Shown here piece by piece: positions 8,020 through 32,623 of a stretch of DNA of 64,000 bases; the stretch's first letter is position 1; each line of letters opens with the position of its first letter. This DNA is from Sphingomonas ginkgonis (GTDB lineage: Bacteria; Pseudomonadota; Alphaproteobacteria; Sphingomonadales; Sphingomonadaceae). The notes under the pieces were generated by a model, which saw only the letters and a list, made by a program, of their open reading frames with translations, made no database searches and had not been told where the DNA came from. The DNA lies in assembly GCF_003970925.1 (NCBI RefSeq), contig NZ_RWJF01000001.1:1482501-1546500 (forward strand). Reading direction: 5' to 3'. The translations under genes were made by a program, and so were the position numbers.

Positions 8020-8898
8020 ATGGGCATGCCGCCGGCAGCGAGGCGGGCGATCGCCGCCCTAGGACGGGAGATCGGCCCGGCCTCGCTGCAGGGCGTGCAG
8101 GCGCTCTATGACGAGGAGCAGCGCCGCCTGTCCGTAGCGCCAGTCCTGGCCGACGCGCCCTATGGCGAGCACGAGCGGCAGCGGCTCGACCTCTATGCGC
8201 CGGCCGGGGCGAGCGGGGCGCCGCTGTTCGTCTGGGTTCACGGCGGCGGATTCCTGCGCGGGGACAAGGGCGATCTCGAGCGCTGGCCCAACGCGCACGC
8301 CGGGCGCTGGGCGGCTGCGAACGGGATGGTCGGGGTGGTGGTCAACTATCGCCTCGCACCCGAGCATCGCTGGCCTTCGGGCGCCGAGGACCTCGCGGCC
8401 GTGGTCGCCTGGCTGGAGGCGCACGCGGCGGCGCACGGCGGCGACCCGGCCCTGATCGTGCTGGCGGGCACGTCGGCGGGCGCCGCGCATGTCGCGTCCT
8501 ACCTCCAGCGGGAGGCGGGCCGCGAACAAATCGCGGGCGCGGTGCTGCTGTCCGGGCTCTACGGGGTCGCGCCGTTCAGCGACGTTCGCGACCGCAGCTA
8601 TTATGGCGAGGACGACGCGGCGCACGGCGGTATGGCGTCGTTGTCGGCGCTGGCGCAGACCCGGGTCCCGCTGTTCGCCGCCTGCTCGGAATATGATCCG
8701 CCGCGTTTTCAGGCCGAATATGCCGGGCTGATCGAGGCGCGGAGCCGGGCGGGACAGCCGCTGCCGGTGGGCGGGGTGATCGCCGGCCACAATCATTTCT
8801 CGCTCGCCTATCATCTCGGGACCGCCGACCGGCGGCTCAGCGACGCGCTGCTCGACTTCGTCGCCGGACTTCCAAAATCGCTGGACAGCACCCAATAA
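8020..8898 (+). CDS. Alpha/beta hydrolase, hormone-sensitive-lipase-type esterase
   Basis: A 292-residue alpha/beta hydrolase. It has the oxyanion motif HGGGF (about residues 73-77), the nucleophile elbow GTSAG with serine near 151, an aspartate in SEYDPP (about 225) and a histidine in AGHNHFS (about 257). This is the bacterial HSL/carboxylesterase pattern, which hydrolyses short acyl or aryl esters. There is no signal peptide, so it acts in the cytoplasm, perhaps on an acylated aromatic. It starts 2 bases after the TonB receptor and closes the operon. The AGAAC-N4-ATTCT motif begins at its last base and belongs to the next unit. Confidence 0.85.
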   Translation: MGMPPAARRAIAALGREIGPASLQGVQALYDEEQRRLSVAPVLADAPYGEHERQRLDLYAPAGASGAPLFVWVHGGGFLRGDKGDLERWPNAHAGRWAAANGMVGVVVNYRLAPEHRWPSGAEDLAAVVAWLEAHAAAHGGDPALIVLAGTSAGAAHVASYLQREAGREQIAGAVLLSGLYGVAPFSDVRDRSYYGEDDAAHGGMASLSALAQTRVPLFAACSEYDPPRFQAEYAGLIEARSRAGQPLPVGGVIAGHNHFSLAYHLGTADRRLSDALLDFVAGLPKSLDSTQ

Positions 8899-8911
8899 GA
8901 ACAGCCATTCT
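8898..8911. promoter_or_regulatory. Operator-like palindrome AGAAC-N4-ATTCT, copy 1 (GH1 promoter)
   Basis: The 14 bases AGAACAGCCATTCT lie 49-62 bases before the GTG start of the GH1 gene and are identical to the copy at 26844-26857. The motif has a dyad AGAA-N6-TTCT. Five copies lie at promoters of sugar-side genes in this window. Binding by the local TetR protein is inference. Confidence 0.6.
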
Positions 8912-8959
8912 AATCACAGCAGACCGGGACTACCGGCCGCAGAGTTGGGAGAGTAGTTT

Positions 8960-10279
8960 GTGATCGATCGCCGCACCTTCATCGCCGCCACAGCCGCTAC
9001 CGCGGCCGCGCCGGGCGTCGCCGCGCCGCTGCGGTCGGGCGGAGCCTTTCCCGAGGGCTTCCTGTGGGGCGCGGCGACGGCGGCGCACCAGGTCGAGGGC
9101 AACAACGTCAACTCGGACTGCTGGGCGCTTGAGCATGTCACCCCGACGGTGTTCGCCGAGCCGTCAGGCGATGCCGCAAACAGCTTCCAGCTGTGGCCGA
9201 CCGACCTCGACCTGGTCCGCAACATGGGGCTTAACAGCTATCGATTCAGCCTCGAATGGGCGCGGATCGAGCCGGAGCCGGGCGCCTTCTCGACCGCCAT
9301 GCTCGACCATTACAAGGCGATGATCGAGGGCTGCCGAGCGCGCGGGCTGACGCCAATGGTGACCTTCAATCATTTCACGACACCGCGCTGGTTCGCGGCA
9401 CGCGGCGGCTGGACGGCGGCGGACTCGCCGCAGCTGTTTGCGCGCTACTGCGAACGCGCGGCGCGGCATCTCGCCGGTTCGATCGGCTATGCGACGACCT
9501 TGAACGAGCCCAATCTCGCCGGGCTGCTCCAGGAGGTGCTCCCGCCGACGATCGGCCCCCGGCTGGTCGCCGTGGACAAGGCGATGAGCGAGGCGGCGGC
9601 GCGCAAGTTCGACGTTCCCTTGTTCTACGCCGGCAATGGACTCTACGCGCCCGACCCGGCGGTCGTCCGACGCAACCTGCTCGCGGGCCACGCCGCCGGG
9701 CGCGCCGCGATCAAGGCGGTGCGCGGCGACCTGCCGGTCGGCGTCAGCCTGGCGATGCTCGACGAGCAGGCGGCGCCCGGCGGCGAGCGGCTGCGCGACG
9801 CCGCCCGCGAGCGGCTCTATGCGCCGTGGCTTCGGGCGGCCCGCGGCGACGAGTTCGTCGGCGTGCAGAACTACGAGCGCAATGTCTGGGGCCCGGCCGG
9901 CAAGCTGCCCGCCCCGGCTGGTGCGGTGCGCAACTATGCCGGCAATGAAGTCTATGCGGGCTCGCTGGCGGGCACGGTTCGCTATGCCCATTCGGTCGCG
10001 GGCGTGCCGGTCATCGTGACCGAGCATGGCGTCGGCACCGACGACGACCGGGTCCGCGCGGCGCTGATCCCGGCGGCGCTCGCCGAGCTGCGCAAGGCGA
10101 TGGCCGGCGGGGTACCGGTCAAGGGCTATGTCCACTGGTCACTGGTCGACAATTTCGAGTGGGTGTTCGGCTACAAGCCGAAGTTCGGGCTGCACAGCCT
10201 CGACCGAACCACTTTCAAGCGCACGCCCAAGCCGAGCGTTTCCGTCTATTCCGCCATCGCCCGGCGCAACGCCGTCTAG
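8960..10279 (+). CDS. GH1 beta-glucosidase with Tat signal
   Basis: A 439-residue glycoside hydrolase family 1 enzyme. The GTG start is preceded by GGGAGAG (8947-8953). The protein opens with a twin-arginine signal (DRRTFIAATAATAAAPGVAA), so it should be exported folded. The family signature FLWGAATAAHQVEG follows directly. The acid/base glutamate is in TLNEPN (about 183) and the nucleophile in VTEHG (about 354, normally TENG, with His for Asn here). The aglycone-side VHWSLVDNFEWVFGYKPKFGL is typical. It probably removes beta-linked glucose from plant glycosides in the periplasm. An AGAAC-N4-ATTCT site precedes it and a secreted esterase follows after 11 bases. Confidence 0.92.
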   Translation: MIDRRTFIAATAATAAAPGVAAPLRSGGAFPEGFLWGAATAAHQVEGNNVNSDCWALEHVTPTVFAEPSGDAANSFQLWPTDLDLVRNMGLNSYRFSLEWARIEPEPGAFSTAMLDHYKAMIEGCRARGLTPMVTFNHFTTPRWFAARGGWTAADSPQLFARYCERAARHLAGSIGYATTLNEPNLAGLLQEVLPPTIGPRLVAVDKAMSEAAARKFDVPLFYAGNGLYAPDPAVVRRNLLAGHAAGRAAIKAVRGDLPVGVSLAMLDEQAAPGGERLRDAARERLYAPWLRAARGDEFVGVQNYERNVWGPAGKLPAPAGAVRNYAGNEVYAGSLAGTVRYAHSVAGVPVIVTEHGVGTDDDRVRAALIPAALAELRKAMAGGVPVKGYVHWSLVDNFEWVFGYKPKFGLHSLDRTTFKRTPKPSVSVYSAIARRNAV

Positions 10280-12185: not shown

Positions 12186-12965
12186 CTACTCCTCGATGAT
12201 CGCGACGGCGCGGGTCCAGCCGGCCGAAGCGCCCTTGATCTTGTGCGGGAAGCAGCTGACCGTGAACCCGTCGGCGGGCAGCGCCTCGAGATTGTGCAGC
12301 TTTTCGAGGTGGCAGTAGCCGATGTCGCGCCCGGCCTTGTGGCCCTCCCAGATCAGCGAATGGTCGCCGGTCTGCTTCACCCGCTCGGCGGTGTAGACGA
12401 ACGGCGCGTCCCAGCTCCATGCGTCAGTGCCGGTCACCCGCACTCCGCGGCTGGTCAGATACATGGTCGCCTCATAGCCCATCCCGCAGCCCTTGCTGAC
12501 GAAGCCGGGATCGCCGAGCGCGCCGCCGGCGGCGGTGTTGACCAGCACGATCTCGAGCGGCCTCAGCTCATGCCCGATCCGGCCCAGCTCGGCCTCGACG
12601 TCGGCGGCGGTGACGACATAGCCGTCGGGAAAGTGGCGGAAGTCGAGCTTGACGCCGGGCTGGAGGCACCAGTCGAGCGGCACCTCGTCGATGGTGATCG
12701 CGCGCTCGCCGCCGCTCATCGTCGGGTGATAGTGCCAGGGGGCGTCGAGGTGGGTGCCGTTATGGGTCGTGAGCGTCACCCATTCCGCAGCGGCGAAACC
12801 GGCGCCGTCGGGCGTGTGCTCGGCGGTCACGCCCGGGAAGAAATGCTGCAGCTCGGCGACCGTTTCGGCATGGGTCTGGTAGCTGATCTTGGGTCGCATG
12901 AAAGGCGGGTCCGTGATCACCTCATTGTCGAGCGTGATCGACAGGTCGACGAGCCGGCGGATCAT
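12186..12965 (-). CDS. Cyclase-family metal hydrolase (kynurenine-formamidase-like)
   Basis: A 259-residue protein of the cyclase / KynB-like family. The signature metal motif is HNGTHLDAPWHYH in the first half, with family positions such as VLVNTAAGG and GVRVTGTDAW later. Members hydrolyse amides, formamides or lactones with Zn or Mn; some act in isatin and aromatic catabolism. The start overlaps the DUF2218 gene stop by ATGA, and an FAH hydrolase gene follows after 3 bases. In this operon it may open a lactone formed after ring cleavage. That role is inference. Confidence 0.85.
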   Translation of the reverse strand: MIRRLVDLSITLDNEVITDPPFMRPKISYQTHAETVAELQHFFPGVTAEHTPDGAGFAAAEWVTLTTHNGTHLDAPWHYHPTMSGGERAITIDEVPLDWCLQPGVKLDFRHFPDGYVVTAADVEAELGRIGHELRPLEIVLVNTAAGGALGDPGFVSKGCGMGYEATMYLTSRGVRVTGTDAWSWDAPFVYTAERVKQTGDHSLIWEGHKAGRDIGYCHLEKLHNLEALPADGFTVSCFPHKIKGASAGWTRAVAIIEE

Positions 12966-13285
12966 TCGCTTTCCCGCCAGTCGTAGCGGAGCGGCGCCTC
13001 GCGGAAGGCGAAGCGGTCAATATGGCGGGCGACAGCGCCCTCGAGGCCCTCGCGCTGGCCGGACGAGCTGGCCTCGATGCGGACGTCGATCGCCTGCTCG
13101 TCGGCGCGAAAGATGACCAGCCCGTCGGCTGGCCAGTCGGCGCCGCGACTGTCGCGCGGGAAGGTGACCGTCCCGCCCTCGGGGGTCTCGGTGACCGCAA
13201 GATTGTGCGACCAATGCTTGAGCAGCTGCGCGACATATTTGCGGCCCTGCGTGGTCTCGACGCGGGCCTTGACAACGAGGGTCAT
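12962..13285 (-). CDS. DUF2218 domain protein
   Basis: A 107-residue protein matching the small DUF2218 family: an N-terminal strand and QLLKHWSHN helix, GGTVTFPRD, and a C-terminal HIDRFAFREAPLRYDW. Some DUF2218 proteins sit beside siderophore or iron genes, but no activity is established. Here it is locked into the aromatic operon by 4-base ATGA overlaps on both sides (membrane protein gene upstream, cyclase gene downstream). There is no signal peptide or membrane segment. A longer frame that runs upstream to 13915 crosses two other genes and was rejected. Confidence 0.75.
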   Translation of the reverse strand: MTLVVKARVETTQGRKYVAQLLKHWSHNLAVTETPEGGTVTFPRDSRGADWPADGLVIFRADEQAIDVRIEASSSGQREGLEGAVARHIDRFAFREAPLRYDWRESE

Positions 13286-13752
13286 GAAGGCACTCCGGAA
13301 TGGGAATGAAAAACGGCGCGAAGCCCAAGCGGGGTGACAATCCCGCCGAGCAGGCCGCCGTAGCCGATCTTGATCAGCAGCGCCGGGGTCCAGGCGATCG
13401 CGGTCCGGGTGGTGAGCGCGAACACCGCGGTCCACAGCAGCACACTGATCCCGGCGGCGAGCAGCGCGGTGGCGACGGCGCGTAGCGGCAGGTTGACCGT
13501 GCCGGCGCCGCTGCCTGGCGGGCCGAAGTGACCCTGCGCCAGCTTGCGGCGGGCGAGCACGCAGGGGACCAGCGTCGCCATCAACGCAACCATGAAGCCC
13601 TGCGGTGCGAAGTCGAGCAGGTAATGGCCGACGCCCCACAGCGGAACCGGGGACGAGCGCCAGAAGACCAGCAGGAAGAAGGCGAGGCTGAGCACCGCAT
13701 TGATGATGACGCTGACGCTGGTCTCGCGGCGGATATGCTCCTGCGTCGTCAA
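13282..13752 (-). CDS. Small integral membrane protein, function unknown
   Basis: A 156-residue protein with four probable membrane segments, near residues 13-32 (VSVIINAVLSLAFFLLVFW), 45-66, 92-113 and 122-145. No family motif was recognised. Its start overlaps the upstream hydrolase gene by ATGA and its stop overlaps the DUF2218 start by ATGA, so it is a true operon member rather than a chance reading frame. A membrane protein inside a ring-cleavage operon may be a permease component or anchor, but its size is too small for a standard carrier. Function is not assigned. Confidence 0.7.
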   Translation of the reverse strand: MTTQEHIRRETSVSVIINAVLSLAFFLLVFWRSSPVPLWGVGHYLLDFAPQGFMVALMATLVPCVLARRKLAQGHFGPPGSGAGTVNLPLRAVATALLAAGISVLLWTAVFALTTRTAIAWTPALLIKIGYGGLLGGIVTPLGLRAVFHSHSGVPS

Positions 13753-14906
13753 GCGGTGCGACCTCCAAGCGTATCGGCGAACCAGTCGGCGATATAGTCA
13801 CGGCCATAGGCCATGTTGTCCGCTCCGACATGCTCCACTCCGCCTTCGCGTGCGGTGAACAGCTTGAGTTCGCGACGAAGCGAGTTGGTGAGCTGGTCGA
13901 AGCTGCGGTGGGCATAGTCGACGCTGATCTGCCGGTCCTTCTCGCCGTGCGTGACGAGAAAGGGAACCCGGATCCGCTCCATCACCCCATCGAGGGTCAT
14001 GTCGCGGCTCTTCTCGTGGAACTCGTCCATGTCGCTTGCCCCGAAGGCCCACATCACGTGCGCCCAGTAATGCGGGACGGGGTTCTCCCCCTCGCGGCGA
14101 AGACGCTTCTGCTGCACCTCGGCCCAGTCGTGATTGGCGCCCCACACCGCCCCCGAGGCGAAGCGCGGCTCATGGGCGACCGCGCGCGGGGCGAAATGCC
14201 CGCCAAGCGAAATGCCGGTCATGCCGACCCGGTCGGGATCGACGTCGTCCTGCTGCTCGAGCCAGTCGACCGCGCTGGACGCCCAATGCTCGCTATGCGG
14301 ATCGACCGGAAGACCCTGAAGGCGGAGCGCCTCGCCGCTGCCGGGCTGGTCGACGCACAGAGTGGAGATGCCGCGGCGGGCGAGCGCCTCAGGGAGGCGC
14401 GACCAGTAGAGCAGCTCCTTGCAGCTATCGAGCCCGTTGCAATACACGACAACCGGCCGCCGGCCTTCGCCCGCTGCCCTTGTGTAGAGCGCGGGCATGG
14501 TGCCGCTTGAAAGCGGGATCTCCACCCGTTCGCGGTCGATCTTGCCGAGGAGGGTGGAGCGGTCGAACGCCTCCCGTGCCTTGGCGTAGGTTTCCCGTCG
14601 GCCGGGATGCCCGTGCCCCTGCATCCGCTCGGCGGTGAACAGGTAGAGCGCGGCGCGCTCCAGCTTGTTGGAGGCGGAGAAGGCGCGGCCGCGCTGCTCG
14701 TCCTCGGCGGCGAGGGCGAGCAGCTTGTCGGCCATCGCCACCCACTGCGCCATGAACTGCGGGGTTCCGGCATCGGCGCCGCTCGCCGCCGCGTCGCGGA
14801 TCGGCTGGCACATGTCGACGATTTCGCCGATCTGCCCGCCGCTCTCCATCGCGATCGCGACCGACAGATTCCAGATATAATTGGGAAAAGGTTCGAATAG
14901 GGCCAA
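13749..14906 (-). CDS. Alpha/beta hydrolase, pseudooxynicotine-hydrolase / FrsA-like
   Basis: About 385 residues. An N-terminal helical cap (FEPFPNYIWNLSVAIAM onward) precedes an alpha/beta hydrolase core with a GISLGGH nucleophile elbow, THGEKDRQ carrying the aspartate and GVEHVGADN carrying the histidine. This cap-plus-core layout is that of 2,6-dihydroxypseudooxynicotine hydrolase, which cuts a C-C bond beside a ketone, and of FrsA-like proteins. In this operon it could cleave a beta-diketone-like ring-fission product. The start is uncertain: the frame has no upstream ATG outside the SnoaL gene, and TTG at 14906 gives a full cap, while the first internal ATG would remove about 18 residues. 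Confidence 0.78.
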   Translation of the reverse strand: MALFEPFPNYIWNLSVAIAMESGGQIGEIVDMCQPIRDAAASGADAGTPQFMAQWVAMADKLLALAAEDEQRGRAFSASNKLERAALYLFTAERMQGHGHPGRRETYAKAREAFDRSTLLGKIDRERVEIPLSSGTMPALYTRAAGEGRRPVVVYCNGLDSCKELLYWSRLPEALARRGISTLCVDQPGSGEALRLQGLPVDPHSEHWASSAVDWLEQQDDVDPDRVGMTGISLGGHFAPRAVAHEPRFASGAVWGANHDWAEVQQKRLRREGENPVPHYWAHVMWAFGASDMDEFHEKSRDMTLDGVMERIRVPFLVTHGEKDRQISVDYAHRSFDQLTNSLRRELKLFTAREGGVEHVGADNMAYGRDYIADWFADTLGGRTA

Positions 14907-14919
14907 GGCGCGTCTTTCG

Positions 14920-15348
14920 TCAGAACATCGGGTGGGAGTTGGCGGCACGCGCGGGAACGGACTGGAGCACGTCCCGATGCTCGACGAAGCGGCCGTGCGC
15001 GAGCCGGTAGAAGTCGGCGACCGCCGCACCGCGCGGGGCATCCGGCGAGCGGACCCGGATGTAGATCGCGGCGAGGTCTCCGTCGACCAGGATGCGCTCG
15101 ACGGTGAAGCGGCGGCCGGGCGACGCGAACATCGGGGCGAGCGCCGCGATCGCCGCGTCGCGCCCGTCGGCGATCCCCGGATTGTGCTGGATGTAATCGG
15201 GCGCGACGAAGCGCTCGAACGCCAGCTTCGGGTTCTTGTCGTGGTAGAAGAGGCGGGCGAATTCCGTGACGATCGTCCGGTTCCCCCGCGTGCCGGTGCC
15301 GGGCAGGGGCGATGCCGACGCCAGTGCCGCGGCCGCGAGCAGGGGCAT
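14920..15348 (-). CDS. SnoaL-like (NTF2-fold) protein, probably exported
   Basis: A 142-residue SnoaL-like polyketide-cyclase-type protein. After a short hydrophobic start (MPLLAAAALASASPLPG) that could be a signal peptide, the NTF2 fold shows FARLFYHDKNPKLAFERFV, the DYIQHNPGIADG motif, a central FTVERILVDGDLAAIYIRV strand and FYRLAHGRFVEHRDVLQ. Relatives include cyclases, dehydratases and isomerases, but many have no known activity. The ATG overlaps the stop of the VOC dioxygenase gene by one base (TGATG), so translation is coupled. Whether it is secreted or the early residues are just the first helix is unclear. Confidence 0.75.
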   Translation of the reverse strand: MPLLAAAALASASPLPGTGTRGNRTIVTEFARLFYHDKNPKLAFERFVAPDYIQHNPGIADGRDAAIAALAPMFASPGRRFTVERILVDGDLAAIYIRVRSPDAPRGAAVADFYRLAHGRFVEHRDVLQSVPARAANSHPMF

Positions 15349-16250
15349 CAGGCCGCCGCCGGCTGGAACAGGCCCTTGTCGGGCTCGGGATGCGGCATGG
15401 TCTGCGGGCCGCCGACCCCGATCCCCCACTGGTCCATGACCTGCGGACCCGGGACGTGGACCTGTGCCTCGTGGGCGTCGAAGTCGACCCGCTCGAGCTC
15501 GGCGGTATATTCGACTGCAAAGCCGTTGGGTGTCACGAAATAGCTGAAGGCATTGTTGCCGGCGGTATGCCGGCCCGGGCCCCACTTGATGTCGACGTCG
15601 GCCTGCCGCAGCCGCGATGCGCCACGCATCATGTCGTCGACGCTCAGCATGTCGTAGGCGATGTGGTTGAAGCACGGTGGCCCGGGGAGAAAGGCGACGC
15701 GGTGGTGCCATTCGTTGCAGCGCAGGAAGGCCATGAAGTCGCCGAGCCAGTCGCTGAGCTTGAAGCCGAGCACGTCGACGAAGAACTGAACCGCCGCCTT
15801 ATGGTCGGGCGAGTGCATGACGATGTGGCTGATCTTCTGGGGAATGCCCTCCCACCGCGTGAGTTCGCGGGCGGTGCCGCGGCGGACGTCGGCGCTGATC
15901 TCGAACGGCAGCCCGTCGGGGTTGAAGAAGCGAAAGCCGTAGCCGCTGCCGAACCCGCCGAGCTCCTTCGGGTCGAACATAATCCGGCAGCCCGCTTCCT
16001 TCACCTTGCGGCAGAGGTCGTCGACCGAGGCGCGGCTGTCGGTGGCGAGGCCGATCACGTCGATTCTCTTCTCGTCCGAGGCACGGAGGCGGACGACGTA
16101 GGGTTCGTCGCTTCCTTCCGCCGCGAAATAGGTCATGCCGTCCTGCTCGCCGGCCAGCTTCAGCCCCCACTTGTCGGCGTAGAAGGCGCGCTCCGCCTCG
16201 AGGTCGGGAACGCCGTAGCCGACGTAGCGGAGCTCGGTCACTCGGGACAT
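15348..16250 (-). CDS. VOC-superfamily extradiol-type dioxygenase
   Basis: A 300-residue two-domain vicinal-oxygen-chelate protein. The second domain has His142 (KISHIVMHS), His196 (FNHIAYD) and Glu247 (FAVEYTAE), a complete Fe(II) triad for extradiol cleavage. It shares WGPGRH and a C-terminal DQWGI with the VOC protein at 3960-4838, so the operons at 752 and 17382 carry paralogous ring-cleavage enzymes. It starts 16 bases after the flavin hydroxylase gene stop, consistent with hydroxylation followed by meta-cleavage. The substrate is not known; the FdeC dioxygenase of flavonoid catabolism is a reasonable comparison by context. Confidence 0.86.
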   Translation of the reverse strand: MSRVTELRYVGYGVPDLEAERAFYADKWGLKLAGEQDGMTYFAAEGSDEPYVVRLRASDEKRIDVIGLATDSRASVDDLCRKVKEAGCRIMFDPKELGGFGSGYGFRFFNPDGLPFEISADVRRGTARELTRWEGIPQKISHIVMHSPDHKAAVQFFVDVLGFKLSDWLGDFMAFLRCNEWHHRVAFLPGPPCFNHIAYDMLSVDDMMRGASRLRQADVDIKWGPGRHTAGNNAFSYFVTPNGFAVEYTAELERVDFDAHEAQVHVPGPQVMDQWGIGVGGPQTMPHPEPDKGLFQPAAA

Positions 16251-16266
16251 AAAATCCTCCTTGAGG

Positions 16267-17382
16267 TCAGACCGGCTTGGCGGTCCGTTCGAACATTTCC
16301 CGGGTCAGCGCCGGGTAATCGAGCGTGTCGCGGCGGCCGAGCTGGAACTCGCCGACCGCGACGCTGCTCTCGACGATGAAGCGGCAGCGGCCCTCGCGGC
16401 GGGCCTGGTAGGCGGCAAAGGCCGGTTCGGGCGCATGGCGGGCGAGCTCGTCGGCGAGCACGATCGAATCCTCAATCGCCATCCCGGCGCCCTGGCCGAG
16501 GTGAGGGGTGGTCCCGTGAACAGCGTCGCCGATCAGCACGACCCGGCCCTTGTGCCACGGCCCCTCGAGGTAGAGCGCCTCGAGCGGCTTGTAGACGACC
16601 GCGCGGTCGTCGGTGATCTGCTCGGCGAGCGCCGCGATCCTCGGAGCGACTCCGGCGAGGCGCTGGCGCATCGCCGCCGCGCGGCCCTCGACCGGCACGT
16701 GCGGGTTGCCCGGCTCGGGCGAGGTCACGAACATGTACATCGTGTCCGCCGAAAGTGGGACGAGGCCGAGCCCGACCCGGCCGGTATAGGCCTGGAGGCA
16801 TTCGACCTCGGCAGGACGCGGGAGATTGTAGCGCCACACCGACTGGCCGGTGAAGGCGGGGCCGGGCGCATCGGGGAAGATGGCGGCGCGGGTCTGCGAA
16901 TAGAGGCCGTCGGCGCCGACCAGCAGGTCGAACCGCTCGCAAGTCCCGTCGGTGAAGCGGACGCCGACGCCGTCGCCGTCGTCCTCGAAGCGCTCGACAC
17001 TGGCCCCGAGGCGGATCTCGGTTCCCGCGCTTCGGGCCGCATCGGCGAGCACGCGCTGCAGCGCGGGCCGGCTGATCCCGAGCTGCGCCGGGTAATCTCC
17101 GCCGGCGAGCCGGGGCGAGGGGATGCTGGCCACCTGCGTCCCGTCGGGCGCGAACATCTCGATCCGGTCGAACGGGTAGGCGGACGCGACATAGGCGTCG
17201 AGCAGGCCCAGCGAGGCGATCGCACGGACGACATTGGCCTGCTGGATGATGCCGACACCGTAGACGCTCCACTCGGGATCGCGCTCGGCGATGGTAACGG
17301 AGAAGCCGCGCTGGCGCAGCGCGATGGCGCTGGTCAGGCCGCCGATACCGCCGCCGCTGATGAGGATTCTGGCCTGCTGCAT
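16267..17382 (-). CDS. FAD-dependent monooxygenase, salicylate-hydroxylase-like
   Basis: A 371-residue class A flavoprotein monooxygenase and first gene of the minus-strand aromatic operon. It contains the Rossmann motif (ISGGGIGGLTSAIALRQRG), the DG motif (LLVGADGLYSQTR) and the GD motif (VVLIGDAVHGTTPHLGQGAG). Length and motifs fit salicylate or 6-hydroxynicotinate 3-monooxygenase relatives, which hydroxylate an aromatic ring, sometimes with decarboxylation, using NAD(P)H. It should supply a catechol-like substrate to the VOC dioxygenase encoded 16 bases downstream. The 103-base gap before it and the LysR gene beyond suggest LysR control. It differs from the longer MhpA-like hydroxylase at 2013. 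Confidence 0.88.
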   Translation of the reverse strand: MQQARILISGGGIGGLTSAIALRQRGFSVTIAERDPEWSVYGVGIIQQANVVRAIASLGLLDAYVASAYPFDRIEMFAPDGTQVASIPSPRLAGGDYPAQLGISRPALQRVLADAARSAGTEIRLGASVERFEDDGDGVGVRFTDGTCERFDLLVGADGLYSQTRAAIFPDAPGPAFTGQSVWRYNLPRPAEVECLQAYTGRVGLGLVPLSADTMYMFVTSPEPGNPHVPVEGRAAAMRQRLAGVAPRIAALAEQITDDRAVVYKPLEALYLEGPWHKGRVVLIGDAVHGTTPHLGQGAGMAIEDSIVLADELARHAPEPAFAAYQARREGRCRFIVESSVAVGEFQLGRRDTLDYPALTREMFERTAKPV

Positions 17383-17451
17383 CCGCTCCGATCCCGCGGC
17401 GGCGCTACGTGGCGCCGGTCCGTCGATATCGCTTCTACCCGCGGGTGAGTG

Positions 17452-17474
17452 GATAAGGATAACTGATATTTTCG
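17452..17474. promoter_or_regulatory. AT-rich putative promoter/LysR-site region of the minus-strand aromatic operon
   Basis: The gap 17383-17485 separates the LysR gene stop from the flavin hydroxylase start. Its only AT-rich part is 17452-17474, about 70-90 bases before the hydroxylase ATG, with repeated GATAA-like words (GATAAGGATAACTGATAT). This is where a LysR-activated promoter would be expected. Closer to the gene there is a GC-rich inverted repeat, CGGCGC (17400-17405) and GCGCCG (17412-17417). Exact sites are not defined. Confidence 0.3.
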
Positions 17475-17485
17475 ATGCTGATGCA

Positions 17486-18400: not shown

Positions 18401-18524
18401 GCGTGCCGTTCCGCCGGTTGTTCGGCGCCTAACAGACCAAAGAGTAAGGGTCTTGACCAGCCGCGCCGCTCCTAGACCACCCGCCACGAGCGCGATTGAC
18501 TCCCGCCCGGGTTGCTCTACTTAG

Positions 18525-18544
18525 ATCAGAACAAACATTCTGAT
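18525..18544. promoter_or_regulatory. Operator-like palindrome, copy 2 (MFS/C-deglycosidase promoter)
   Basis: ATCAGAA (18525-18531), a 6-base spacer and TTCTGAT (18538-18544) form a perfect 7-base dyad around AGAAC-N4-ATTCT. It is the best copy of the five-site family. It ends 20 bases before the GTG of the MFS gene and follows a TTGACT (18496-18501) that could be the -35 element. The position suggests repression of the C-deglycosidase operon. Confidence 0.7.
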
Positions 18545-21253: not shown

Positions 21254-21267
21254 AGAACGCTAATACT
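21254..21267. promoter_or_regulatory. Operator-like motif, copy 3 (TonB receptor promoter)
   Basis: AGAACGCTAATACT matches AGAAC-N4-ATTCT at nine of the ten fixed positions and sits about 80 bases before the TonB receptor ATG. A TTGACG at 21229-21234 is a candidate -35 element. It also overlaps a small repeat ATTAG/CTAAT (21251-21264). The weakest-placed copy of the five. Confidence 0.5.
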
Positions 21268-21345
21268 TATTCAGATAGAGTCGAAATTCCCGTGAAGGGT
21301 CTCGACCGACAAGGCCGGGTCAACCGGCGTGAGGAGAGGGGTGTG

Positions 21346-23865
21346 ATGAGCAGATCGAATCTCGCCGTGCGTCTTCTGGCCGGGAGCGCGCTGACGGCGC
21401 TCGGGACGGCCGCCGCCGCGCAGACCGTGCCCACCGTGCCGCCGACCGAGAACCCGGCGCTCGAAACCAACCAGACCCCCAACTCTTCGAACAACGAGCC
21501 GTCGCAGCCGGGCGCCCCCGCCTCCGAACCGACCTCGCAGAGCGGCGACGGCCTCAAGGAGATCGTGGTCACCGCCAACCGGACCCAGTCCAACGCGCAG
21601 AAGACCCCGGTCGCGCTGACCGTCTACAGCGGGTCCGACCTGGCCGCCGCCGGCGTCACCAACGTGGTCAACCTCCAGCAGGTCGACCCCAGCATCAACG
21701 TCACGACCAGCACCGGTGCGGGCTATGTCGCGATCCGCGGCGTCGCCTCGACCGACGTGACCGAGATCGGCGACCCTTCGGTGCCGATCGCCCGCGACGA
21801 CTTCTTCACCAACCGCAGCTTCTCGATCGCAACCTCGATGTACGATCTCGAGCGGGTCGAAATCCTGAAGGGGCCGCAGGGCACGCTGTTCGGCCGCAAC
21901 TCGACTGGCGGCCTCGTCCGCCTGATCAGCCGCAAGCCAGGCAAGACACTGGGCGCCGATGCCTCGCTGGAAGTCGGCAATTACAACACTTTCAATCTCG
22001 ACGCCGGGATCGACCTTCCCGTTTCCGATCGGCTGCAGTTCCGCTTCTCGGGCATCCGCCATTATCACAAGGGCTATCGCAAGCTCGACGTGATCGGCGG
22101 ACGCGGCGACGACGACGACACCTGGTCGGGCCGCGCCACCATGGCGTTCCAGCCGTTCGACGGCTTTCGCGGCTACGTGCAGTACCAGCACGACAAGATC
22201 GACGATGTCGGCGACGTGGCGCTCAAGACGGCGGTCGGAGTACGTCCGGACGGCCTCTCGTCGAAGCGCTTCGCCAACTATGTGCCGAGCTACAATCGGC
22301 TGACCGGCGATCGCGTCCGCTGGGAATTCACCTACGACCAGCTGCCGGGCGGGCTGTCGCTGATCTACGCCGGCGGATGGGACAAGCAGAAGTGGCGTCA
22401 CCAGCTCGACGGCACAACCGTCGGCCCCGCCGGCACCCCGATCCTCCCGCCGCCCTTCTTCACGACCGGGCTGGCCGCCTTCCAGCAGGCGGAGAACCCG
22501 ACTACCTGGAACCACGAGGTTCGGCTGGCGACGCGGCAAGACGGGCCGGTCACCGCGCAGGTCGGCTACTTCCACTTCAACGAGCATAACCGCAACCTCA
22601 ACAGCGGCCTGCTCAACCAGAATCCCGGCGAATATCTCGGCCAGTACGGGATCCGCTTCAACTATGACGTGAAGACCCGCTCCGACGCGGTGTTCGGCCA
22701 GATCGGCTTCCGCCCGGTCGACTCGGTGCGGATCACCGGCGGCGCGCGCTACACCTGGGATCGCAAGGAGCGAAACGGGGTCAGCACGCTGCAGTTCGGC
22801 CCGCTTCTCAACGTGCCGTCCGTCCTCGTCCCCGTGTTCGGGCTGCCGCCGGTGCCGCTGGTGATCAACACCCCGGCGGGCGGGGAGATCTACAAGGGCA
22901 AGAAGCCCACGTTCCACGTCGGAGTCGACTGGAACCCGACACCGCGCAACATGGTCTACGCCAAGTTCGACACCGGCTATAAGTCGGGCGGATTCAACTC
23001 CAACGGCTCGGCGCCGGCGGTCCAGTACGGACCGGAGACGCTCAAGGCGTGGGAGCTCGGCACCAAGAACCGCTTCGCCGACAACCACATCCAGCTCAAC
23101 GCCGACGTCTTCTATCAGATCTACGGCGGCTACCAGGCGTCGCAGTCGAGCGACGCGCTGGGCGGCTCGACCGGCACCTTCAACGTCGGCAGCGCGCACA
23201 TCCGGGGCGCCGAGGCGCAGTTCGTGGCGTCGTACGGGCCGCTCCGGGTCGACGCCAACGCGACCCTGCTGCGGACCAAGGTGATCCGCGCCGCCATCCT
23301 TACCGCGGGCGACGGCACCCAGGTCGACGTGACCGGCAACCGGCTGCCGAACGCGCCCGGTTTCGTGCTGACCGGCGGGGTCGAGTATGAAATCGACGCC
23401 GGCCCGGTGACGCTCACCCCGCGTATCGACGGCAAGCATTCGACCCGCTTCAACTATTCGATCTTCAACTATGCCGACACCGAGCAGCATGCCTACACGA
23501 CGTTCAACGCGTCGCTGAACATCGTGCCCAAGAGCAGCCGGTTCGAGGCGCTGCTGTTCGTTCGCAACCTCACCGACAAGACGGTGTTCGCCAACGCCGC
23601 GCGCAACTTCGTCGGCACGCCGGACATCAATACATACGAGTTCCAGCCGCCGCGCACCTATGGCGTGCGGGTTGCCTTCAAGTTCGTCGCCCCGCCGCGG
23701 GTCGAGGCCGCGCCGCCGCTGCCGCCTCCGCCTCCGCCACCGCCAGCGCCTCCGCCGACCCAAACCTGCGCCGACGGGTCGGTGATCCCGGTGACCGCCG
23801 TCTGCCCGGCGCCCCCGCCACCGCCGCCGCCGCCACCGCCGCCGCCAGCCGCGGAACGGGGCTGA
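21346..23865 (+). CDS. TonB-dependent receptor with proline-rich C-terminal extension
   Basis: An 839-residue TonB receptor. The ATG at 21346 follows GAGGAGAGGGG and begins a signal peptide (SNLAVRLLAGSALTALGTAA, cut near AAAQ). The TonB box (KEIVVTANR), plug (VEILKGPQGTLFGRNS) and barrel are typical, and the barrel ends with an aromatic strand (TYGVRVAFKFV). Unusually about 65 more residues follow: two polyproline runs around a short TQTCADGSVIPVTAVCP segment with two cysteines, ending AAERG. Such tails are familiar from sphingomonad OmpA-like proteins but not from TonB receptors, where the C-terminal Phe is normally needed for barrel insertion. It is likely the uptake receptor for the C-glycoside operon just upstream. 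Confidence 0.9.
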   Translation: MSRSNLAVRLLAGSALTALGTAAAAQTVPTVPPTENPALETNQTPNSSNNEPSQPGAPASEPTSQSGDGLKEIVVTANRTQSNAQKTPVALTVYSGSDLAAAGVTNVVNLQQVDPSINVTTSTGAGYVAIRGVASTDVTEIGDPSVPIARDDFFTNRSFSIATSMYDLERVEILKGPQGTLFGRNSTGGLVRLISRKPGKTLGADASLEVGNYNTFNLDAGIDLPVSDRLQFRFSGIRHYHKGYRKLDVIGGRGDDDDTWSGRATMAFQPFDGFRGYVQYQHDKIDDVGDVALKTAVGVRPDGLSSKRFANYVPSYNRLTGDRVRWEFTYDQLPGGLSLIYAGGWDKQKWRHQLDGTTVGPAGTPILPPPFFTTGLAAFQQAENPTTWNHEVRLATRQDGPVTAQVGYFHFNEHNRNLNSGLLNQNPGEYLGQYGIRFNYDVKTRSDAVFGQIGFRPVDSVRITGGARYTWDRKERNGVSTLQFGPLLNVPSVLVPVFGLPPVPLVINTPAGGEIYKGKKPTFHVGVDWNPTPRNMVYAKFDTGYKSGGFNSNGSAPAVQYGPETLKAWELGTKNRFADNHIQLNADVFYQIYGGYQASQSSDALGGSTGTFNVGSAHIRGAEAQFVASYGPLRVDANATLLRTKVIRAAILTAGDGTQVDVTGNRLPNAPGFVLTGGVEYEIDAGPVTLTPRIDGKHSTRFNYSIFNYADTEQHAYTTFNASLNIVPKSSRFEALLFVRNLTDKTVFANAARNFVGTPDINTYEFQPPRTYGVRVAFKFVAPPRVEAAPPLPPPPPPPPAPPPTQTCADGSVIPVTAVCPAPPPPPPPPPPPPAAERG

Positions 23866-26131: not shown

Positions 26132-26788
26132 TCAATCCCGCGGCGGGTGGCGGAGGAAGGCGCTGCTCATCGCCGCGAGGTCCTCCTTGAGGACCCGCCA
26201 GTCGCCTTCCCAGGCGGCGTCGGTCGACGAGCCGAAGCCGAGATAGCGGGCGACCGCGGCGTAGACGATCCGGAACAGCGAATTGATCGCCCGCTCCGGG
26301 TCGGGGTGGCGGATCTCGTCGCGCCGCGCGAGCAGCGCCTCGTGGAACTGCTGCTCGGTGACGGCATAGCTCTTCTTGCCGACCCCAGCGACGATCGCGT
26401 CGGTAGTCGCGCGGAGCATGAAGGGGCGGAGGATCGCCGAGTGCTTGCGCAGCACCTCGGCGATGGATTCCACAAGCCGCCCAACCAGGTCGACGAGCGA
26501 TCCGGCCTCGGATACCGCTTGGGCGATCCCTGAGGCCTGGTCCGAGTCGATGTCGGCCAGCGCCCGGACCTGCACCGCGCGGATGAGATCGTCCTTGCTG
26601 TCGAACCGACAGTAGATGGAGCCGATCGAAACCTTTCCCGCGCGACTCACGTCGGCGAGGGTAAACTCGTCGTTACCGCGCTCGACCAGCAGCTTGGCCG
26701 CAGCATCCACCATCCGCTCGAACGAGGCGCGGCTGCGCCCCTGCAGTGGTTCGCGGCTCGGCGCCGCCAGATCGACCTTCACATTCAT
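26132..26788 (-). CDS. TetR-family transcriptional regulator
   Basis: A 218-residue TetR regulator. The N-terminal helix-turn-helix (FTLADVSRAGKVSIGSIYCR, about residues 42-62) is typical, followed by a helical ligand domain. Its promoter region contains the palindrome AGAAC-N4-ATTCT (26844-26857), 56 bases upstream of its ATG and shared with the divergent luciferase-like gene. TetR proteins often repress themselves and the divergent unit, and the same motif recurs at four other sugar-side promoters. I therefore infer that this is the local repressor of the C-glycoside regulon, released by a glycoside, aglycone or keto-sugar. Direct binding is not shown. Confidence 0.88.
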   Translation of the reverse strand: MNVKVDLAAPSREPLQGRSRASFERMVDAAAKLLVERGNDEFTLADVSRAGKVSIGSIYCRFDSKDDLIRAVQVRALADIDSDQASGIAQAVSEAGSLVDLVGRLVESIAEVLRKHSAILRPFMLRATTDAIVAGVGKKSYAVTEQQFHEALLARRDEIRHPDPERAINSLFRIVYAAVARYLGFGSSTDAAWEGDWRVLKEDLAAMSSAFLRHPPRD

Positions 26789-26840: not shown

Positions 26841-26860
26841 ATCAGAACAGCCATTCTAGT
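26841..26860. promoter_or_regulatory. Operator-like palindrome, copy 4 (TetR / luciferase-like divergent promoter)
   Basis: ATCAGAACAGCCATTCTAGT contains the 14-base motif (26844-26857) identical to copy 1. It lies in the 141-base gap between divergent starts at 26788 and 26930. A TTGACG at 26808-26813 could be the -35 of the rightward promoter. This position is classic for an autoregulated TetR operator. Confidence 0.7.
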
Positions 26861-28605: not shown

Positions 28606-30956
28606 CCGATCCCGCCCTCAGCCACGCGGAGCAGGCCGCGCTGACCGCCGGCGCCGCCATGTGGGAGACCGTCGCGGTGCCGCATGCCGGCGTCCCTTCG
28701 GTCCGGCTGGCGGACGGGCCGATGGGCATCGCCAGCGGCCGGGTCGACGAGCGCGACGTCGCGCTGCTCACCCCCTGTCCGACCGCGCTCGGGGCGTCGT
28801 GGGATGTCGATCTCGTCCGCCGCGTCGGCGCGCTGGTCGGGCACGAAGCGGTGCGGATGAGCGTAGACCTGGTCCTCGCTCCCAACCTCAACCTGCCGCG
28901 CAGCCCGCTGGTCGGGCGCAGCTTCGAGCTGTTCTCCGAAGATCCGTTCCTCACCGGGAGCCTCGGCGTGGCGTGGCTGCAGGGCATGCAGTCGACCGGC
29001 ACCGGCGCGGTCGCCAAGCATCTGGTCTGCAACGACAGCGAAACTCAGCGCAACAGCATGAACGTGCGGATCGGCGAGCGGCCGCTTCGCGAAGTCTACC
29101 TCCTGCCGTTCGAAATGGCGGCCGAGGCAGGCGCCGCCGGCCTTCTCACCGCCTACAACCGGGTGAACGGCCTCTACTGCGCCGAGCACGCGCCGATCCT
29201 GTCCGAGATCGTCCGCGCCGACTGGCGGTTCGAGGGGCTGCTGGTCAGCGACTGGTTCGGCACGATGTCGAGCGACAGCCTCGCGGCCGGCCTCTCACTG
29301 GAAATGCCAGGACCGGGCCGCTTCATGGGCGACCGGCTGATCGATGCCGATCCCGCGCTGGTCGCGGCGGCCGCCAGCCATGTCGCGCGCACTGCCGTGC
29401 GGTGGTCCGCGGCCAAGGCGGTGCCGATCGATCCGGCAGACGCCGAGGCGCTGCTCGTCGAAGCCGCGGCGGCGGGGTTCACCCTTTTGCGCAACGAGGG
29501 CGGGCTGCTGCCGCTGGTGCCCGGTCGCGAGCGCCGGATTGCGGTGATCGGCCCGAACGCGACATCGCCCTGCTTCCAAGGGGGGACGTTCGCTCGGATT
29601 GCGCTCACCCCCTATGCGGTGAACCCGCTCGATGCACTCCGTGCCCGCTTTGCCGGAATCGCCGAGGTCGTCCACGAGCCCGGCGTCGATCCCAGTCCGC
29701 GGCTGCCGCCGATGAACGTCACTCCGGCGCGCGACCTTGGCGACGGCTGTACCCGCGGCATGACGATCGACTATTTTGCCGATCATGCGCTCTCCGGCGA
29801 GCCGCTCGCCAGCGAGACCCGCGCCACCAACTCGCTGACCTGGTTTACCGGGATGCACGAGCTCGGCGCCTGGGATTGCGATGGTGCGGTCCGCGCGAGC
29901 GGCCTGTTCAACCCCACACGCAGCGGCGAACACGACCTGCGGGTCGGGGGCACCGGCGCGGTCCGGCTGCTGGTCGACGGGCGCGAGGTGCTGTGCCACG
30001 ACCAGCAGATCGCGCCCGGTGACATCATGGGCGTGCTCAAGGCCGGTGACAGCGAGGGCGTCGCGGTGAGGCTCGAGGCGGGACGGCCGGTCAGCATCCG
30101 TGTCGAGTTCCGCTACGGCAAGGCGCGGGCGCAGGGCCTGTGGTTCGGGATTCGCGAGCCCGACGAGCCCGAAGCGATGCTCGCCCGCGCGGTGGCGGCC
30201 GCCCGCTCGGCCGACGCGGTGCTTCTGGTCATCGGCGAAACCTCGGACTCGGGGGTCGAGAGCAAGGACCGCGCCGATACCGCCATCGATCCGCCGCAGC
30301 AGCGGCTGATCGAGCGGGTCTGCGCCGCGAACCCACGCACCGCGATCATCGCCAATGTCGGCCACGCCTTCGATACGAGCTGGGAGGAGCAGGCGGCGGC
30401 GATGATTCTGGCCTGGTATCCGGGGCAGGGCTTCGGGCCCGCGCTCGCCGCGGTGGTGGCGGGCGACCGCGAGCCGGGCGGGCGGATGCCCGTCACGATC
30501 GCTCGTCGCGACGAGGATTATCCCGCCTTCGACACCACACCGAATGGCGCGGGGAATCTCGCCTACGACGAGGGCGTGCGGATCGGCTATCGCGGCATGC
30601 CCCATCCGCGCCATGCGCTCGGCGCCGGCTTCGGCTACGCCCGCTTCGCCATCGCCGCTGCGGCCGTGGCGCCGACCCCCGAGGGGTGGGTTGTCGAGCT
30701 CGACGTCGAGAATGTATCGGCGCATGCCGGTTCCGAGGTCGTTCAGGTCTACCGGGCGGAGCCCGAAATCACCCTGATCGGCTTCGCCAAAGTCCATCTT
30801 GCTCCCGGCGAGCGGCAGCGCATCGCGATCCCGCTGGCGCGGCGGCGAATGATGATCTGGGACGGCGGTTGGCAGCTGCTGGGCAAACGGGCGACCCTGC
30901 TGGTCGGCCGCTCGGCCGTCGACACGCCGTTCCGGCTCGACCTGCCGCTCGCCTAG
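28602..30956 (+). CDS. GH3 beta-glucosidase with PA14 domain, cytoplasmic
   Basis: A 784-residue family 3 glycosidase. The first domain has VRLADGPMGIASGRV, the KHLVCNDSETQRN substrate loop and the nucleophile Asp in LLVSDWFG (about residue 218). The second domain (NEGGLLPLVPG onward) is interrupted by a PA14-like insert (about residues 385-525, with MTIDYFADHA and SGLFNPTRSGEHDL). The end is a fibronectin-III-like domain (VELDVENVSAHAGSEVVQVY). There is no signal peptide, unlike the GH3 enzyme at 43019, so it should act on imported beta-glucosides in the cytoplasm. It is the third gene in the unit with the monooxygenase pair. Its stop overlaps the convergent GMC gene stop. Confidence 0.92.
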   Translation: MTDPALSHAEQAALTAGAAMWETVAVPHAGVPSVRLADGPMGIASGRVDERDVALLTPCPTALGASWDVDLVRRVGALVGHEAVRMSVDLVLAPNLNLPRSPLVGRSFELFSEDPFLTGSLGVAWLQGMQSTGTGAVAKHLVCNDSETQRNSMNVRIGERPLREVYLLPFEMAAEAGAAGLLTAYNRVNGLYCAEHAPILSEIVRADWRFEGLLVSDWFGTMSSDSLAAGLSLEMPGPGRFMGDRLIDADPALVAAAASHVARTAVRWSAAKAVPIDPADAEALLVEAAAAGFTLLRNEGGLLPLVPGRERRIAVIGPNATSPCFQGGTFARIALTPYAVNPLDALRARFAGIAEVVHEPGVDPSPRLPPMNVTPARDLGDGCTRGMTIDYFADHALSGEPLASETRATNSLTWFTGMHELGAWDCDGAVRASGLFNPTRSGEHDLRVGGTGAVRLLVDGREVLCHDQQIAPGDIMGVLKAGDSEGVAVRLEAGRPVSIRVEFRYGKARAQGLWFGIREPDEPEAMLARAVAAARSADAVLLVIGETSDSGVESKDRADTAIDPPQQRLIERVCAANPRTAIIANVGHAFDTSWEEQAAAMILAWYPGQGFGPALAAVVAGDREPGGRMPVTIARRDEDYPAFDTTPNGAGNLAYDEGVRIGYRGMPHPRHALGAGFGYARFAIAAAAVAPTPEGWVVELDVENVSAHAGSEVVQVYRAEPEITLIGFAKVHLAPGERQRIAIPLARRRMMIWDGGWQLLGKRATLLVGRSAVDTPFRLDLPLA

Positions 30957-32584
30957 GCCTTAGCGTCGGCGAGGATCAGCTCGGCGGCGCGCGCCGCAAC
31001 CGCCATCGTCGGGCCGTTGGTGTTGCCCGAGACCGGCGTCGGCATGATCGACGCATCAACCACCCGCAGCCCGTCGATGCCATGCACCCGGCAGCGAGAG
31101 TCGACTACCGACAGCAAAGGGTCGGTGCCCATCGCGCAGGTGCCGGTTCCGTGCAGGCCCGGGCTCATCATCCACTTGAGTTCCTCGATCAGCTGCTCGT
31201 CGCTCTGGCAGTCGGCGCCCGGGGTTCGCTCGCGCCCGACGTGGCGGCGCAGCGGCTCGGCCGCGGCGAGCCGGCGCAAGGTACGCAGCAGGAGCAGCGA
31301 CTTGTCGCGATCCCGCTCGTCGCTCCACCAGCCGGCATCGATGCGCGGCGCGGCCGCAGGGTCGCTTGAGGCGATCCGTACCGACCCGCGGGAATGCGGG
31401 CGGAGGTCGAACCCGGCGAAGGTGATCCCCGGCGCCGCGGTCATCGGCCCGCGTCCCGCCTCGGTCTTCATCTCCTTGGACGAGCGCATCGCGAAGGGTG
31501 CCGCGGCGAGCTGGAGGTCGGGCCAGTCCGGCTGTCCCTGCGTCGAGTAGAGCATGGTCAGCGGCATGCCGACCCGTGCCATGCGTCCGGTACGGGTGAG
31601 GAAATATTGCAGCGCGTGGCGGTAGACCCGCCAGGTCACGAACTCGCGATTGTCGCCGCCATGTTCGTGGAGGTCGAAGCTGATTGACAGCATCTGGTGG
31701 TCGGCCAGGCGGGCGCCCACCGCCGCCCGTTCTGCTACCACCGGAATGCCGAGCCCGGCGAGCAGGTCGCCCGGCCCGATCCCGGAGCGTTGCAGCAGGG
31801 CAGGGGAGTTGTAGACGCCCGCCGCGACGATTACCGCGCCGCGCGCCTCGTAGCGCCGCTCCGTCCCGTCCGGCAGCCGGCACAGGATCCCGGTCGCGCG
31901 CGTCCCGTCGAACAGCAGCCGCTCGACCTGCGTGTCGCTGACGATCGACAGGTTGGAGCGGTTGCGGATCGGGTCGATGAAAGCGGACCAACTCGATGCC
32001 CGCTCGCCGCGCCGGTCGACCGTGAACTGCGTCCGCCCGACGCCTGCCCGGCCGGGTGTATTGATGTCGTCGAGCCATGGCACGCCGAGGCTCTGGCAGG
32101 CCTCGCCAACCCGCTCGATCAGCGAGTCCTTCATCACCAATTGGGTGACCTGCAGCGGGCCGTCGCGGCCGCGGCTCGGGTCCGCGCCGGGCTCGTGATA
32201 GCTTTCCAGCCAGCGGAAGTTGCGCTCGATCTCGGCCCAGCTCCACTCGGCCAGCCCGCGCTCGCGCCACCCGTCATAGTCGCGCGGCATGCCGCGCAGA
32301 TACCACATGCCGTTGACTGCCGAGGAGCCGCCCAGCCCGCGGCCGTATTTGTGCGTCTCGGGCGAGCGGCCAAGATGCGGCTCGACCGCGAACTCGTGGA
32401 AAAACTCGGGCTTCTGCCCGACGCGGATGAAGCCCGCCGCCATCTTGATGAACCAGTGATCGGTCCGCCCGCCGGCTTCGACCAGCAGGACACGACTGTC
32501 CGAATCCTCGCTCAGCCGCCGCGCCAGCACGCAGCCGGCCGAGCCGGCACCCACGATCACATAGTCGAATTGGTCGGTCTGCAC
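30953..32584 (-). CDS. GMC-family FAD oxidoreductase, candidate sugar C3-oxidase
   Basis: A 543-residue glucose-methanol-choline oxidoreductase. The GTG at 32584 is chosen because AGGAGAGG lies just upstream and the FAD motif (DYVIVGAGSAGCVLARRLSED) then follows at once; the longer frame adds 31 residues across the operator. The family boxes GRGLGGSSAVNGMWYLRG and the C-terminal LHGTGTCAMGTD with catalytic His and VSGNTNGPTMAVAARAAELI are present. CarA, a FAD-dependent GMC-family enzyme, oxidises C3 of the sugar in C-glycosides before deglycosidation, so this gene is a candidate for that step. An alcohol or choline dehydrogenase role remains possible. It has its own copy of the shared operator. 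Confidence 0.85.
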   Translation of the reverse strand: MQTDQFDYVIVGAGSAGCVLARRLSEDSDSRVLLVEAGGRTDHWFIKMAAGFIRVGQKPEFFHEFAVEPHLGRSPETHKYGRGLGGSSAVNGMWYLRGMPRDYDGWRERGLAEWSWAEIERNFRWLESYHEPGADPSRGRDGPLQVTQLVMKDSLIERVGEACQSLGVPWLDDINTPGRAGVGRTQFTVDRRGERASSWSAFIDPIRNRSNLSIVSDTQVERLLFDGTRATGILCRLPDGTERRYEARGAVIVAAGVYNSPALLQRSGIGPGDLLAGLGIPVVAERAAVGARLADHQMLSISFDLHEHGGDNREFVTWRVYRHALQYFLTRTGRMARVGMPLTMLYSTQGQPDWPDLQLAAAPFAMRSSKEMKTEAGRGPMTAAPGITFAGFDLRPHSRGSVRIASSDPAAAPRIDAGWWSDERDRDKSLLLLRTLRRLAAAEPLRRHVGRERTPGADCQSDEQLIEELKWMMSPGLHGTGTCAMGTDPLLSVVDSRCRVHGIDGLRVVDASIMPTPVSGNTNGPTMAVAARAAELILADAKA

Positions 32585-32609
32585 CCGCGATTCCTCTCCT
32601 GCCTCGATT

Positions 32610-32623
32610 AGAACGGCAATTCC
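32610..32623. promoter_or_regulatory. Operator-like motif, copy 5 (GMC oxidoreductase promoter)
   Basis: AGAACGGCAATTCC matches AGAAC-N4-ATTCT at nine of ten fixed positions and lies 26-39 bases before the GTG of the GMC gene, about the same distance as copy 2 from its start codon. It overlaps a second perfect inverted repeat, TCCGATCT (32621-32628) and AGATCGGA (32633-32640), which could be an additional operator or a weak terminator for pobA upstream; no T-run follows. Confidence 0.55.

Follow-up and report, generated by a model that had tools for sequence, protein, structure and literature searches.

A 20-bp dyad shared by the promoters of a putative glycoside catabolic cluster in Sphingomonas ginkgonis and the TetR-family protein predicted to read it

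Gene content of the locus

The window (the whole 64-kb stretch of S. ginkgonis DNA that was analysed) contains a cluster of putative catabolic genes around a gene for a TetR-family regulator. Families were assigned with Pfam.

8960..10279, plus strand: GH1 glycosidase (PF00232)
12186-12965, minus strand: cyclase, in the string headed by the LysR gene
13749-15041, minus strand: alpha/beta hydrolase, in the LysR-headed string
Within 12186..18487, minus strand: SnoaL-like gene, between the dioxygenase and the alpha/beta hydrolase
15348-16250, minus strand: extradiol-type dioxygenase, in the LysR-headed string
16267-17382, minus strand: FAD monooxygenase, behind the LysR gene
17486-18487, minus strand: LysR gene, head of the same-strand string 12186..18487
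18565-19788, plus strand: MFS transporter
19775-20794, plus strand: C-glycoside deglycosidase (CGD) alpha-like gene (PF01261 and PDB sequence matches)
20794-21171, plus strand: CGD beta-like gene (PF19906)
21346..23865, plus strand: TonB-dependent receptor (ATG 21346 assumed; longest open reading frame from 21292)
23936-24988, minus strand: xylose-isomerase-like (sugar-isomerase-like) gene, behind tetR and the Gfo gene
25000-26127, minus strand: Gfo/Idh/MocA oxidoreductase, directly behind tetR
26132..26788, minus strand: TetR-family regulator, the proposed repressor (PF00440)
From 26930, plus strand: luciferase-like monooxygenase (LLM; ATG 26930 assumed, another ATG at 26906)
28045-28605, plus strand: FMN reductase, between LLM and GH3
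28602-30956, plus strand: GH3, last of the LLM-FMN reductase-GH3 string
30953..32584, minus strand: GMC oxidoreductase (543 aa from the likely start GTG 32584)

The CGD alpha-like protein matched 8qvc (E 3.5e-104) and DgpC1 (E 4.6e-39). Adjacent genes of the CGD type, a TIM-barrel alpha and a PF19906 beta, are thus both present in the window, and by family and gene adjacency the pair is predicted to be a C-glycoside deglycosidase. For the GMC oxidoreductase, the start GTG 32584 is favoured because the family match begins at residue 34 of the longest open reading frame, and from the sequence itself. Against the NCBIfam models this protein scored 32.5 bits for pyranose oxidase (TIGR02462 pyranose_ox, cut-off 544.9) and 410 and 333 bits, both below the cut-offs, for choline dehydrogenase, and its best solved-structure match was 8b7s; it appears to resemble choline dehydrogenase, and its assignment as a glycoside 3-oxidase is not clear. 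The LLM enzyme is without a close solved relative (best E 2.7e-19 in a sequence comparison with solved structures).

Two further features lie outside the cluster. Beside the lig genes, a LysR-type open reading frame (39110-40321, minus strand) carries two tandem LysR helix-turn-helix domains, seen as two Pfam stretches, with the CatM model matching at 12-87 and the PcaQ model at 108-394. A separate set of glycan-related genes (GH3, GH47, GH92, ROK, GH2 and sugar-isomerase-like) occupies 43019-57102 without the operator described below.

Five copies of one operator

The first-pass annotation had reported five copies of the motif AGAAC-N4-ATTCT in this region. All of them are there at the positions given: copies 1, 2 and 4 match the 14-mer AGAACNNNNATTCT exactly, while copies 3 (ATACT) and 5 (ATTCC) carry one mismatch each. 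As originally described, copies 1 and 4 are identical over the 14-mer, and the arms of copy 2 are 7 bases long (ATCAGAA/TTCTGAT). Similar AT flanks surround all five copies, and the fuller motif is the 20-bp dyad ATNAGAA-N6-TTCTNAT. The scores below are from a matrix built on 44 unique sites from the TetR loci of relatives, the window excluded, and distances are to the assumed gene starts.

8895..8914, plus strand: operator 1, ATAAGAACAGCCATTCTAAT, score 25.1, 45 bp before GH1
18525..18544, plus strand: operator 2, ATCAGAACAAACATTCTGAT, score 31.2, between the LysR gene and MFS-CGD, 20 bp before MFS
21251..21270, plus strand: operator 3, ATTAGAACGCTAATACTTAT, score 29.3, 75 bp before the TonB receptor
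26841..26860, plus strand: operator 4, ATCAGAACAGCCATTCTAGT, score 30.7, between tetR and LLM, 52 bp before tetR and 69 bp before LLM
32607..32626, minus strand: operator 5, score 12.5 (the weakest copy), 22 bp before GMC

Each copy had been placed in a promoter gap, which holds for operators 2, 3 and 4, all intergenic; operator 1 shares bases with the stop codon of the preceding hydrolase gene (8020-8898), and operator 5 lies upstream of GMC only with the start at GTG 32584. Through operator 4, tetR has the palindrome at its own promoter, in agreement with the earlier assignment. The LysR frame opens 37 bp from operator 2, but as residue 37 is the first of its DNA-binding domain, the true start is probably farther from the operator. 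The 14-mer core shows the same asymmetry in all five copies (C at position 5 and A at position 10 on the plus strand), independent of the direction of the target gene.

Specificity in the window and the genome

With mismatches allowed, the 14-mer performed near chance level (16 matches at up to 2 mismatches in the window vs 14.3 expected; 30 at up to 1 mismatch in the whole genome vs 20 for the reversed control pattern) and was dropped as a search pattern in this form. The mismatched 14-mer is not informative; what carries the signal is the AT flanks together with exact matching. In the genome scan for AGAACNNNNATTCT that had been proposed, the exact form occurred three times in 3.21 Mb, always inside the window. 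The pattern ATNAGAACNNNNATTCTNAT at up to 1 mismatch recovered exactly the five window sites from the whole genome; reverse-strand reads aside, one further place had 2 mismatches and the others 3. At up to 3 mismatches its reversal matched 6 times in the whole genome, and within the window the counts at this threshold were 5 for the pattern and 0 for its reversal.

The top five positions of the relatives' matrix in the window were the five sites themselves, followed by a next non-overlapping position at 0.0; the best value in 20 Markov windows was 2.1. A candidate at 17456-17475, in the gap between the LysR and FAD monooxygenase genes, scored 0.0, within the noise of up to 2.1, and was not counted. 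Nor were the 3-mismatch genomic places in L026-L042 (best score 5.8) counted as operators; such places were scored where a locus had been obtained, with C2:67624 outside the scoring. At the lig promoter nothing rose above the matrix noise, in line with the reported absence of the motif there.

The place with 2 mismatches, a sixth operator (score 27.6; C1:2271221, L069 6722-6741), is separated from operator 5 by about 756 kb and stands 15 bp ahead of a GH43 gene. The genes around it include three of resolvase type, an IS240-type transposase and, adjoining an efflux set, a TetR distinct from that of the window. This second TetR (L069 4036-4590) has a 48-residue stretch in common with the window TetR at only 33%; judged by sequence, any relationship between the two is at most remote, and the second protein could conceivably regulate that one site.

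The dyad in relatives

To follow the dyad beyond S. ginkgonis, 26 TetR loci from 25 genomes (518 kb) were assembled, chosen by the presence of TetR and drawn from Sphingobium, Novosphingobium, Sphingomonas, Erythrobacter, Nitrospirillum, Niveispirillum and Azospirillum, plus one unclassified; they are not independent, as L047-L050 are near-duplicates and G112 and L051 have the same site letters. At up to 1 mismatch, ATNAGAA-N6-TTCTNAT occurred 53 times in 23 of the 26 loci, compared with a mean of 0.34 and a maximum of 2 for 29 permuted dyads; at up to 2 mismatches it occurred 86 times in 24 loci (permuted dyads: mean 4.03, maximum 18). The two loci without a dyad at this threshold, L044 and L068 (Sphingobium sp. 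YR768 and AP50), hold 60%-identical TetR copies with most pathway genes missing nearby. Strain YR768 has a second TetR copy (L043) inside a dyad-bearing cluster.

A sample of 298 family genomes was picked independently of TetR, and TetR was scored as present at E <=1e-20, which applied to 15 genomes, that of the window included. The exact dyad was found in 10 of these 15 and in 17 of the 283 others (p 1.5e-8), leaving 5 TetR-bearing genomes without it; the reversed control dyad was present in 4 of the 298. A looser 18-mer gave 7 of 15 vs 45 of 283 (p 0.007). Among the diverged TetR genomes, five (G001, G095, G127, G207 and G281) carry an exact dyad at a distance of 1.5 to 4.3 kb from tetR. The dyad thus tracks this TetR across genera and, as described below, stands before the same genes.

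Conserved targets and promoter placement

A gene was taken as a target when a dyad with up to 2 mismatches lay within 400 bp upstream of its extrapolated start, so that an operator between divergent genes may count twice. By this rule LLM (20 of 20), MFS (17 of 18), tetR (18 of 26), the TonB1-type (5 of 6) and TonB2-type (9 of 19) receptors, CGD alpha (7 of 17), Gfo (3 of 9), GMC (1 of 1) and GH3b-type (1 of 1) were preceded by a dyad, against a background of about 9% in 430-bp pieces drawn at random from the loci, which are themselves enriched in dyads. Zero dyads were returned for FMN reductase (20 genes), CGD beta (19), GH3a (18), isomerase (9), dioxygenase (8), hydrolase S9 (8), cyclase (8), Hyd2 (5), r11220 (2), GH1 (1), VanA (1) and LysR (1), most of these gene types not being first in their gene string. 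Six further receptors (L047-L051 and L056) were missed by the rule, with the dyad 144-222 bp before the first aligned base. Eight of the 26 tetR genes have no dyad in the 400 bp upstream; in L043 and L046, tetR stands behind a TonB gene that has a 2-mismatch dyad ahead of it. None of the 86 dyads in the relatives' loci fell inside a recognised gene, such genes making up 47% of the DNA, which bears on the earlier concern that the motif might be as frequent in coding DNA as at promoters.

A TTGAC word reading toward the operator was present in the 60-bp flank of 35 out of 48 unique operator contexts, compared with 7.6% of random places; of the 36 such words, 33 are located 22-33 bp ahead of the operator. 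In the window, TTGAC stands upstream of the operator in the MFS (29 bp), LLM (33 bp) and TonB (22 bp) directions; none reads toward it in the GH1, GMC, tetR and LysR directions. Because most boxes have this spacing, the operator falls on the -10/start region, and promoter blocking is therefore the natural reading.

Ring-cleavage genes

Homologs of the dioxygenase, the S9 hydrolase and the cyclase are present in 8 of the 26 loci, in all 8 on the same strand behind one of two kinds of head. These heads are a TonB receptor with a dyad in L047-L051 and L056 (2 mismatches; 1 in L051) and the LLM-FMN reductase-GH3 string in L055 (dyad with 2 mismatches) and L063 (head of the string beyond the locus end). 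Strand and spacing suggest that the ring-cleavage genes are co-transcribed with their heads. The first-pass annotation had suggested that sugar removal and ring breakdown are separately controlled; as a rule this is rejected, since ring-cleavage genes of relatives follow operator-headed genes, and in the window operator 2 lies in the LysR gap. Operator 2 could also act leftward on the LysR-headed string 12186..18487, and direct or indirect operator control of the window ring-cleavage genes is possible.

The TetR protein

The N-terminal helix-turn-helix of TetR matched PF00440 with 42.4 bits (cut-off 24). The predicted monomer model comprises nine helices (mean pLDDT 91.5, pTM 0.86), and the modelled fold is all-helical with a C-terminal ligand/dimer domain, as in the TetR family. 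No named subfamily was reached: nine NCBIfam models matched, all far below their cut-offs, the best being ScbR (39.6/150 bits). Among the 120 matches listed of 369 homologs at E <=1e-30, no functional name went beyond TetR/AcrR-family regulator or similar. The residues VSIGSIY in the DNA-binding region are shared by 36 of 41 orthologs; some of these lack a dyad in their own promoter, so the stretch alone is no predictor of the dyad.

At E 1e-20, TetR was found in none of five other same-genus genomes sampled (G077, G145, G197, G238 and G274), which are smaller (2.2-2.6 Mb vs 3.2 Mb), so the cluster may have been gained.

Proposed regulation

Since the sites, the co-occurrence of dyad and TetR in relatives, the conserved targets and the promoter-like placement, all obtained by computation, agree, TetR at 26132-26788 very probably regulates the sites; we infer operator binding, repression instead of activation and the nature of the inducer. 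In our reading, to which we assign a probability of roughly 0.85, the five sites are operators of this one local repressor, and their genes are co-induced by a plant polyphenol glycoside or a compound derived from it. A TetR dimer would bind the 20-bp dyad, itself overlapping or directly adjoining the -10/start region of sigma-70-type promoters, and would thereby block transcription of the TonB receptor, MFS-CGD, LLM monooxygenase-FMN reductase-GH3, GH1, GMC and its own tetR-Gfo-isomerase unit. Release of TetR would follow its binding of a plant polyphenol glycoside, or of the 3-keto form or aglycone of that compound; uptake, removal of the sugar and the initial attack on the aglycone would then be switched on together. 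The earlier proposal of one sugar-side regulon stands as to the shared operator and the local regulon. A purely sugar-side regulon is not supported, as the regulon takes in the operator-headed LLM/FMN reductase pair, besides the Gfo/isomerase string; FMN reductase, the Gfo/Idh/MocA gene and the sugar-isomerase-like gene had been absent from the first-pass gene list.

The CGD pair, GH1/GH3/GH43, the TonB receptor and the monooxygenase suggest, on the basis of family knowledge, plant polyphenol glycosides as the substrate, perhaps C-glycosyl flavones. The alternative that survives best, unlikely in our estimate, keeps TetR and its operators as described and differs in the substrate, which would be another aryl glycoside or a plant saccharide conjugate, with an inducer of another class. 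The choline-dehydrogenase-like character of GMC and the distance of LLM from solved structures would both fit such a substrate, whereas the CGD alpha/beta pair beside glycosidases and ring-cleavage enzymes argues for polyphenol glycosides.

It is improbable that another regulator, for example the LysR protein at 17486-18487, binds the dyad and that TetR merely travels with the cluster. This would agree with the position of operator 2 in the LysR/MFS gap and with the different TetR near the sixth site; however, 24 of the 26 loci hold dyads while a relative of the LysR protein was seen in 1 (L068, 33%), a locus that has no dyad; TetR-bearing genomes also show an excess of the exact dyad, and the second TetR has just its short stretch in common with the window protein. 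That TetR activates, or represses at some sites and activates at others, is highly improbable: the GH1, GMC, tetR and LysR directions without an obvious TTGAC box would be compatible with it, but with 33 of 36 boxes placed as they are, the operator falls on the -10/start region. That short AT-rich words resemble one another by chance, as the near-chance counts of the mismatched 14-mer might suggest, has a negligible probability in view of the exact-14-mer, flanked-20-mer, matrix, family-genome and target counts, and is contradicted by the dyads of relatives.

Beyond repression by TetR at the five sites, a wider reading is put forward tentatively, its parts taken jointly and rated at somewhat below even chance. 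The TetR clade would be a polyphenol (C-)glycoside sensor with one operator code across Sphingomonadales and Azospirillum-type bacteria, and would govern uptake and deglycosylation, with ring cleavage added in many members. In the window the ring-cleavage arm would have split off behind LysR, with operator 2 in the gap, giving a two-signal cascade in which TetR responds to the glycoside and LysR to the aglycone.

Relation to known systems

FdeR is a LysR-type regulator. It is described as a naringenin-dependent activator in the accessible text of PMC10799723 and may, by analogy, correspond to the LysR gene heading the monooxygenase/dioxygenase genes (12186-18487), whereas the proposed regulator of the window is a TetR. 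Judged from the accessible parts of the respective papers, a close parallel in a sphingomonad is EdcR of Caenibius tardaugens, a repressor that likewise has one palindrome at several promoters of a catabolic cluster; the palindrome covers the -10 box, with a weaker copy at the EdcR gene itself. EdcR differs in its palindrome, TnnCnnTACnAnTnGTAnnGnnA, and in controlling oestrogen genes (PMC8700777). The mycobacterial bkaR is similar in being a TetR-type protein that controls nearby metabolic genes, but its organisms, genes and, apparently, operator are different (PMC3920632, accessible text). PheR is IclR-type, with a site different from the window dyad (PMC13273656, accessible text).

As far as their accessible text goes, C-glycoside clusters with CGD (PMC8563793) and glycoside 3-oxidase (PMC10646112) likewise combine a CGD alpha/beta pair with a candidate sugar-oxidising flavoenzyme; in contrast to the glycoside 3-oxidase, the GMC protein of the window is choline-dehydrogenase-like. 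The accessible portions of these two papers name no regulator of the C-glycoside enzymes, and a term search of that of PMC10628242 found none. C-glycoside cleavage enzymes have already been described, while a regulator for them, or an account of the present operator and regulon, was not found in the literature searched, for the most part outside subscription papers.

Our analysis provides a candidate regulator, operator and target list for aerobic polyphenol-glycoside catabolism in plant- and soil-associated alphaproteobacteria. As the distant GH43 gene suggests, further pathway genes may be findable through the operator, and TetR together with its promoter might serve as a glycoside biosensor.
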